Assembly (NCBI GenBank): GCA_947585865.1
Contig: CANPXH010000002.1
Location: forward strand, 62,001-126,000
Direction: 5' to 3'
DNA: 64,000 nt
Origin: an uncultured Clostridia bacterium
GTDB taxonomy: Bacteria > Bacillota > Clostridia > Lachnospirales > CAG-274
Both the position numbers and the translations under genes were made by a program. Shown in pieces: positions 38,153-58,831 of the stretch (position 1 is its first letter; the number at the start of each line of letters is the position of its first letter). The notes under the pieces are model-generated. The model saw only the letters and a list, made by a program, of their open reading frames with translations, had not been told where the DNA came from and did no database searches.

Positions 38153-38436
38153 GGACTGCATACCTGCAGTCCTTTGTTGCGTGTCGATAAAATCGACACG
38201 CTTGAAAGAAATGCTAACATTTCTTTCAGTTGAATTAAGGTAGGAACCAGCCGTGTTTTCCGCAATTTAGGCACAAGTGCCTAAATTACAGAAAAGTTCC
38301 TGTCCTCAGGCGGGCAAAGCTCGCCTTGCGGATTATAGTCTGCGACGCTTTTTTGCAAACTGTTCTTTACTTAAAATTCATATTTTCTGTCAAAATATTG
38401 TTTTTCGACAGTTCGAGGACTGCATACCTGCAGTCC
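38153..38436 (+). repeat. Structured repeat element, copy A (284 bp)
   Basis: Non-coding element with a partner at 58512-58797 in reverse orientation. Order: hairpin GGACTGCATACCTGCAGTCC (38153-38172); stem GCGTGTCGAT/ATCGACACGC (38179-38201); stem GAAAGAAATG/CATTTCTTTC (38204-38227); a large hairpin GGAAC..GTTCC (38243-38300) with inner stem AATTTAGGCAC/GTGCCTAAATT; a variable stem (38308-38326); GGATTATAGTCTGCGACGC and a T-run; an A/T-rich part; and a second, identical copy of the first hairpin (38417-38436). The region 38179-38306 matches the partner at about 95% by hand alignment. Either terminal hairpin followed by TTT could terminate divIC. No reading frame of note. Confidence 0.9.
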
Positions 38437-38466
38437 TTTCTATATGGGCGGGAAATGTTTTTTAGG

Positions 38467-58015: not shown

Positions 58016-58510
58016 ATGAGCAACATAATCTTGATAGGTATGCCGGGAGCAGGCAAAAGCACTATAGGAGTAGTCCTTGCCAAGGTCATGGGATACAGAT
58101 TTACGGACAGCGATATTATAATACAGGAAAAGACAGGCAGGCTTTTGCATGAAATAATAGAAGAAGAGGGTATCGAGGGCTTTAACGCCATAGAAAACAA
58201 AATAAACTCGGAAATATGTACGGACAAAGCGGTCATAGCCACAGGAGGCAGTGCGGTATACGGCGGAGAGGCCATGGAACACTTTAGGAGCATAGGCACC
58301 GTGGTGTATCTTAAGCTGGGATATAAGGATATTGTAAGCCGCCTTGGGGATATTAACGAAAGAGGCGTTGTTATAAAGGAGGGGCAGACGCTTATGGATC
58401 TTTATAACGAAAGGATACCGCTCTATGAAAAGTATGCCATGCTCACGATCGATTGCACAGACAGAGAAATAAGAGATATAGTAAAGGAGATAAAGGCAAG
58501 ATTAAAGTAA
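58016..58510 (+). CDS. aroK: Shikimate kinase
   Basis: A 164-residue enzyme phosphorylating shikimate at O3. P-loop GMPGAGKST (residues 8-16), RFTDSDIIIQ for the shikimate-binding Asp, and VIATGGSAVYGG in place of the usual GGG. The LID region is NERGVVIKEGQTLMDLYNER. Normal length (about 165). Its 3' end is one base from the repeat element copy B, whose terminal hairpin may terminate it. Confidence 0.93.
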   Translation: MSNIILIGMPGAGKSTIGVVLAKVMGYRFTDSDIIIQEKTGRLLHEIIEEEGIEGFNAIENKINSEICTDKAVIATGGSAVYGGEAMEHFRSIGTVVYLKLGYKDIVSRLGDINERGVVIKEGQTLMDLYNERIPLYEKYAMLTIDCTDREIRDIVKEIKARLK

Positions 58511-58511
58511 A

Positions 58512-58797
58512 ACCAACGCTTATTGCGTTGGTCTAAGACTGTCAAAAAACAATATTTTGAGAGTAAATATGAAATAAAATAAAGAACAGCTTGAAAAAAA
58601 GCGTCGCAGACTTTAATCCGCAGGAGGAATTCACTTCCTCCGAGGACAGGAACTTTTCTGTAATTTAGGCACTTGTGCCTAAATTGCGGAAAACACGGCT
58701 GGTTCCTACCTTAGCAAAACTGAAAGAAATGCAAGCATTTCTTTCAAGCGTGTCGATTTTATCGACACGCTGTAAGACCAACGCAATAAGCGTTGGT
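58512..58797 (-). repeat. Structured repeat element, copy B (286 bp)
   Basis: Reverse-orientation partner of 38153-38436. Read on the minus strand, the part from GCGTGTCGAT to CTGTCCTC is almost identical, the variable stem has a different sequence but the same pairing (GGAGGAA/TTCCTCC against AGGCGGGC/GCTCGCCT in copy A). The terminal hairpins are arms ACCAACGC and GCGTTGGT (58512-58532 and 58777-58797), unrelated to those of copy A. Here the loops are TTATT and AATAA, so the two ends form inverted repeats, whereas in copy A they are direct. The element lies between aroK and carD, which converge on it. No gene inside. Confidence 0.9.
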
Positions 58798-58831
58798 CTT
58801 TGATCGATATTTGTTATTTTCGCTTTTAGTT

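Follow-up and report, generated by a model that had tools for sequence, protein, structure and literature searches.

A putative IS1182-mobilised MITE with a conserved folded core inserts at terminator hairpins in Clostridia and duplicates them

Two similar intergenic stretches in a 64-kb window of the genome of a gut Clostridia bacterium (the whole stretch analysed, G000:C2:62001-126000, from a draft genome in 81 contigs) are copies of one short, dispersed element. Comparison of its sequences makes it very probable that this is a non-autonomous MITE whose mobility depends on an IS1182-type transposase: insertion is directed to terminator hairpins and leaves a full-length copy of the hairpin on each side. 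The sequence-only reading that first described the stretches had proposed either a structured RNA or a miniature mobile element, and the mobile-element option was borne out by terminal inverted repeats, a locus-specific duplication, empty sites and a related transposase.

Reading the sequence at both loci, we found the two stretches, here named copies A and B, at the places and on the strands first given (Table 1). A letter count over 38179-38306 gave 6 differences in 128 bases, in agreement with the ~95% identity estimated before; by BLAST, the copies are 88% identical over 234 bases. The limits proposed for copy A, 38153-38436, do contain the element but are too wide. Positions 38153-38172 and 38417-38436 are identical copies of one flanking hairpin, GGACTGCATACCTGCAGTCC, whose sequence is specific to the locus, and the element proper spans 38177-38415. 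The layout [hairpin]CA-GCGTGTCGA ... TCGACAGT-CTG[hairpin] is constant across copies, and this constancy between the hairpins fixes the length at ~239 bp and the ends as CAGCGTGTCGA and CAGACTGTCGA (read inward). These terminal inverted repeats (CAG..TGTCGA) match at 9 of 11 positions. Like other MITEs, the element is short and has no transposase gene, and no open reading frame of its own was found beyond chance frames overlapping known genes, as had been said of both stretches.

Table 1. Coordinates of the element copies, their hairpins and the duplicated targets in the window.
Feature	Position	Strand	Basis or remark
Copy A, left target duplicate: terminator-type hairpin GGACTGCATACCTGCAGTCC + TTT	38153..38175	+	Identical to 38417-38439; one in G001/G003
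Copy A of element, 239 bp	38177..38415	+	Ends set by comparison with 86 copies
P1 hairpin, overlapping left terminal inverted repeat	38179..38201	+	Alignment and pair counts
P2 hairpin	38203..38228	+	Pair counts; compensated stem differences in genus g5
P3, a long hairpin with outer stem AGGAAC/GTTCCT plus middle and apical stems	38242..38301	+	Compensatory changes in 3/3 stems
P4 hairpin, conserved CCTC just before	38308..38326	+	5/7 pairs changed on both sides
P5 hairpin + GACGC, most conserved motif (GCGGATTWWAGTCTGCGACGC)	38328..38348	+	Two nearly invariant G.U pairs; many genera
Copy A, right copy of duplicated target hairpin	38417..38439	+	Identical to 38153-38175
Copy B, left (element orientation) copy of duplicated hairpin, GACCAACGC-TTATT-GCGTTGGTC	58773..58800	-	Stem as in 58509-58534, loop inverted
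Copy B of element, 238 bp; aroK-like and CarD-like genes converge on it	58535..58772	-	88% identity to copy A
Copy B, right copy of duplicated hairpin, GACCAACGC-AATAA-GCGTTGGTt	58509..58534	-	Sequence reading

The stretches had been taken for a pair, a description that did not survive a wider search. With copy A as the query, BLAST returned 57 matching pieces in the same genome, some 30 of which are complete or almost so, and a covariance model built on P2-P5, the internal 147-nt core, matched 33 cores there and up to 64 in one relative. A genome-wide search extended to relatives had been suggested as the check, with many dispersed copies as the outcome favouring a mobile element; that was the outcome. 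By the covariance model, the core is present in 33/48 genomes and 10/11 genera of the family, and in a sample of 96 genomes of the order it was found in families f16 and f17 as well as in the element's own family. Distant copies keep the order P2, P3, CCTC, P4, TGCGGATT..AGTCTGCGACGC, with diverged stems. The P5 motif is also present in Chakrabartyella piscis, a cultivable species. Some contigs start or end within a copy (C2:1-145, C23:1-152 and the ends of C18 and C27), so copies are probably under-counted. Plasmid and phage collections gave no match to the element.

We then compared the flanks of 86 distinct copies from this genome and its relatives. Two copies of one local palindrome flank the element in 72 of them, against 2 of 1698 mispaired controls, in which left and right flanks were taken from different copies; a target-site duplication specific to each locus is a further property of MITEs. 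A clear duplication is absent in the other 14/86. The duplicated hairpin is 16-40 bp long (median 24), and the limits of most duplicated segments coincide with the base of the stem. Flanks fold at about -13 kcal/mol, compared with about -4 for shuffles. Of the 72 duplications, 51 are followed by a T-rich tract (right copy) or preceded by an A-rich one (left copy), as expected for intrinsic terminators, and the flanking palindrome is usually the intrinsic-terminator hairpin of the neighbouring gene.

Empty sites were found for the locus of copy A. In two congeneric genomes, the same upstream gene is followed by a single terminator without the element (AAGGACTGTCTGATTGGCAGTCCTTTTTT in G001, AAGGACTGCCGCAGGCAGTCCTTTT in G003). 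Copy A is the only one of the two window copies with clean empty sites: none was found among relatives for copy B, where synteny differs, nor was a clean empty/filled pair found among them for the copy on contig C25. The loop is inverted between the two duplicated hairpins of copy B (58773-58800 versus 58509-58534) and likewise at L181 and L167; these loops look as if they had flipped after or during insertion.

For 73 complete copies, both neighbouring genes were called; the pair is convergent in 31 cases, tandem in 24 and 13 (one count per arrangement) and divergent in 5. Tandem cases show a weak preference for the + orientation (24/37, p=0.05). The view that the stretches have no link to their neighbours thus needs correction, since a positional link does exist: copies are found in the terminator, at the 3' end of a gene.

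G000 yielded a single PF13751 (DDE_Tnp_1_6) transposase, a 475-aa protein of the IS1182 family (NCBIfam NF033551, 417 bits against a curated cut-off of 270) with the Pfam domains DUF772 and DDE. Its element has perfect 11-bp ends, CAGTCTGTCAA/TTGACAGACTG, and sits in a terminator, ACCGCCGCATTATAAATGCGGCGGT, that also holds one MITE copy. The order there is hairpin-IS-hairpin-MITE-hairpin, with three copies of the hairpin ACCGCCGCATTATAAATGCGGCGGT. Elsewhere in the family, the ends of IS1182 copies read CAGACTGTC(G/A)A and adjoin palindromes. The MITE thus shares its type of ends with an autonomous element (IS1182 with CAGTCTGTCAA or CAGACTGTC(G/A)A); local IS and MITE ends agree at 9/11 and 8/11 bases, being similar, not identical. 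Hairpins adjoin the IS ends, and the P2-P5 core is absent from the IS. IS1182 genes were found in only 7/48 family genomes, and none was found in G001 or G004 despite their 42-43 element copies; mobilisation in trans is therefore something that we infer.

In the mechanism that we propose, an IS1182-family DDE transposase would act in trans on the MITE ends, CAG..TGTC(G/A)A, and insertion would take place at both feet of a palindrome that can fold into a hairpin or cruciform; such a target is in most cases the intrinsic terminator that follows a gene. Strands would be joined at opposite feet of the palindrome, and fill-in would then duplicate the whole hairpin. Because the hairpin is duplicated whole, the host gene would keep its terminator and carry the insertion in its 3' untranslated region. 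This transposition biochemistry is our interpretation of the insertion products. An IS200/IS605- or RAYT-like mechanism does not agree with the length of the target duplications or with a DDE transposase, and we rejected it. Group IIC introns also use terminators as insertion sites. Kinship to them was rejected as well: hairpins are duplicated here, no Rfam intron match is present, and the element has no room for a reverse transcriptase.

The element is modular. Some copies in the genome of the window (L012, L017/L040, L041 and L013, L039) carry optional hairpin modules at fixed places, one of ~50-60 nt in P4 (ATCAGCAACTTTGCTTCGCAAAGCAAGCCGC...) and one of ~45 nt after P5 (CCGGATGCATGGCGAGCAACATTACGAAGTAATG...). 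One copy (L042 135-515, G000:C33) is interrupted in its 3' part by ~147 nt rich in hairpins, perhaps a nested element, and at L248 (G036:C98) the P2-P3 unit is tandemly repeated just upstream of one core copy. Short partial copies of ~58 nt with P1-P2 only (L031-L036, own genome) were considered as autonomous elements and rejected, as they have the appearance of relics; two that are near-identical, L033 and L034, lie upstream of a coding start. Just past another relic, at L035 3157-3286, three 43-bp units (AGAAGCGTGTCATAGTCTGATCCGTAAAATATCGGTATGGATA) stand in tandem.

It is quite conceivable, although we lean slightly against it, that the element exists for the sake of its structured RNA. P2-P5 would then belong to the 3' untranslated region of the upstream gene, be co-transcribed with that gene and have a function selected in its own right; candidate roles are in mRNA stability or processing, or as a parasitic or regulatory RNA. 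The MITE ends would serve as its vehicle. Such a function would add to the MITE explanation, not exclude it. Pair statistics from 33 distinct copies bear on this reading. In the P1-P5 structure, 95.7% of cells are paired, compared with 37-49% when partners are slid; 25 pairs are changed on both sides, with 113 compensatory cells against 33 in shuffles that leave relatedness in. An alignment of P2-P5 over several genera gave a similar result, with the apical P3 stem out of register and one of five measures (further pair types) not above shuffles. Subject to the relatedness that these controls retain, the covariation favours a common fold. The two nearly invariant G.U pairs of P5 favour the + strand as the folded one, with three positions supplying most of the G.U excess. 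The earlier structured-RNA option gains partial support from the covariation, and its form as a stand-alone, immobile RNA gene is refuted by the empty sites. No Rfam family reached its gathering score anywhere in the 64-kb window, and a relaxed threshold (E<=10) added chance-level matches only, consistent with the statement that no named RNA family could be recognised.

The occurrence of the core in 10 of the 11 genera and two further families also speaks for an RNA function, as does genus g5, in which the left end is lost and P2-P5 is kept, with a P2 stem that varies between copies with compensation. Among the g5 copies read, only L210 has a clear right-end relic beside a terminator. By a rough ORF-based count, the left neighbour reads into the core in the + direction in 11 of 15 g5 matches, one locus being counted twice, and several cores lie within a few bases of the left neighbour's stop codon. 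This pattern suggests that selection acts on the folded core for more than transposition, although recent within-genome spread could mimic part of the signal. The orientation bias of complete copies is weak, which counts against an RNA role, and the hairpins could instead serve as DNA structures in transposition. The conserved P2-P5 core may thus act as an RNA or as a folded single strand.

A rival reading is that the stems are kept only for single-stranded or cruciform DNA in transposition, through end pairing or protein binding, and have no RNA function. Hairpins do run along the whole element, and others adjoin the ends of the IS. However, the most conserved motif is internal (P4-P5), not terminal, the core is missing from the IS, for which the same DNA features should be necessary, and the g5 core persists without a left end. 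We consider a purely DNA-structural role rather unlikely. An immobile, vertically inherited RNA gene in few copies would share the conserved fold, but the contexts of the 33 copies are unrelated, targets are duplicated and empty sites exist, which makes it hardly credible. An assembly artefact, which the draft contigs that break inside a copy might suggest, has a negligible probability, as most copies lie inside contigs between different neighbours, each has its own flanking hairpin, the flanks pair, empty sites exist and relatives carry the same element family; the concern that the copies might exist only by such an artefact is thereby removed.

The MITE reading can be set beside known systems. 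IS1272, of the IS1182 family, targets hairpins without a sequence consensus, often terminators (PMC4923244, PMC5678879), and Siguier and colleagues, as cited in these two papers, described some IS1182 members that target palindromes. The present element resembles IS1272 and TnSha1 of staphylococci in its link to an IS1182-family transposase and in its consensus-free hairpin or terminator targets downstream of genes. It differs from both in the fate of the target: those two elements delete the hairpin, partly or entirely, with no target duplication (PMC4923244, PMC5678879), whereas here the hairpin is duplicated and is single in empty sites. In addition, the abundant element here is a gene-less 239-bp MITE. 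Whole-hairpin duplication appears among the pathways sketched as possible for hairpin-targeting DDE transposition (PMC5678879, Fig. 13b), and the copies described here look like that outcome.

Like other bacterial MITEs (PMC10969869), the element is short, gene-less and rich in stem-loops, with terminal inverted repeats, direct repeats of the target and many intergenic copies. In contrast to them, its target is a terminator hairpin of site-specific sequence, duplicated whole (16-40 bp), and its interior is conserved across genera, with covarying stems. The pneumococcal BOX, RUP and SPRITE repeats are likewise dispersed, structured and intergenic, and SPRITE is terminator-like (PMC10969869, PMC3049150); compared by description, the terminator is here a part of the target, not of the element. 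Insertion sequences that target REP palindromes (PMC1525189) also use palindromic intergenic sites, but those belong to one repeat family, whereas every target hairpin here differs. Since palindrome targeting by IS1182 is already published, the target preference is known. The hairpin duplication and the MITE appear to be new, within the limits of a literature search that found no report of this element; an earlier description elsewhere, including one of duplicated palindromes, is possible.

With this element, dozens of natural insertions become available that duplicated a terminator hairpin in full, and the difference between duplication here and deletion by IS1272 makes structure-directed target choice testable. 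It offers a simple route by which a parasite may settle next to genes and leave their terminators in place, and it draws attention to an RNA-like motif that is widespread but unannotated. More tentatively, and with rather more doubt than confidence, the genome comparisons may reflect a structured-RNA family, present in several Clostridia families, that a transposon spreads into the 3' untranslated regions of genes with their terminators preserved and that selection keeps after the ends decay; it would then be a self-installing 3'-UTR RNA module.
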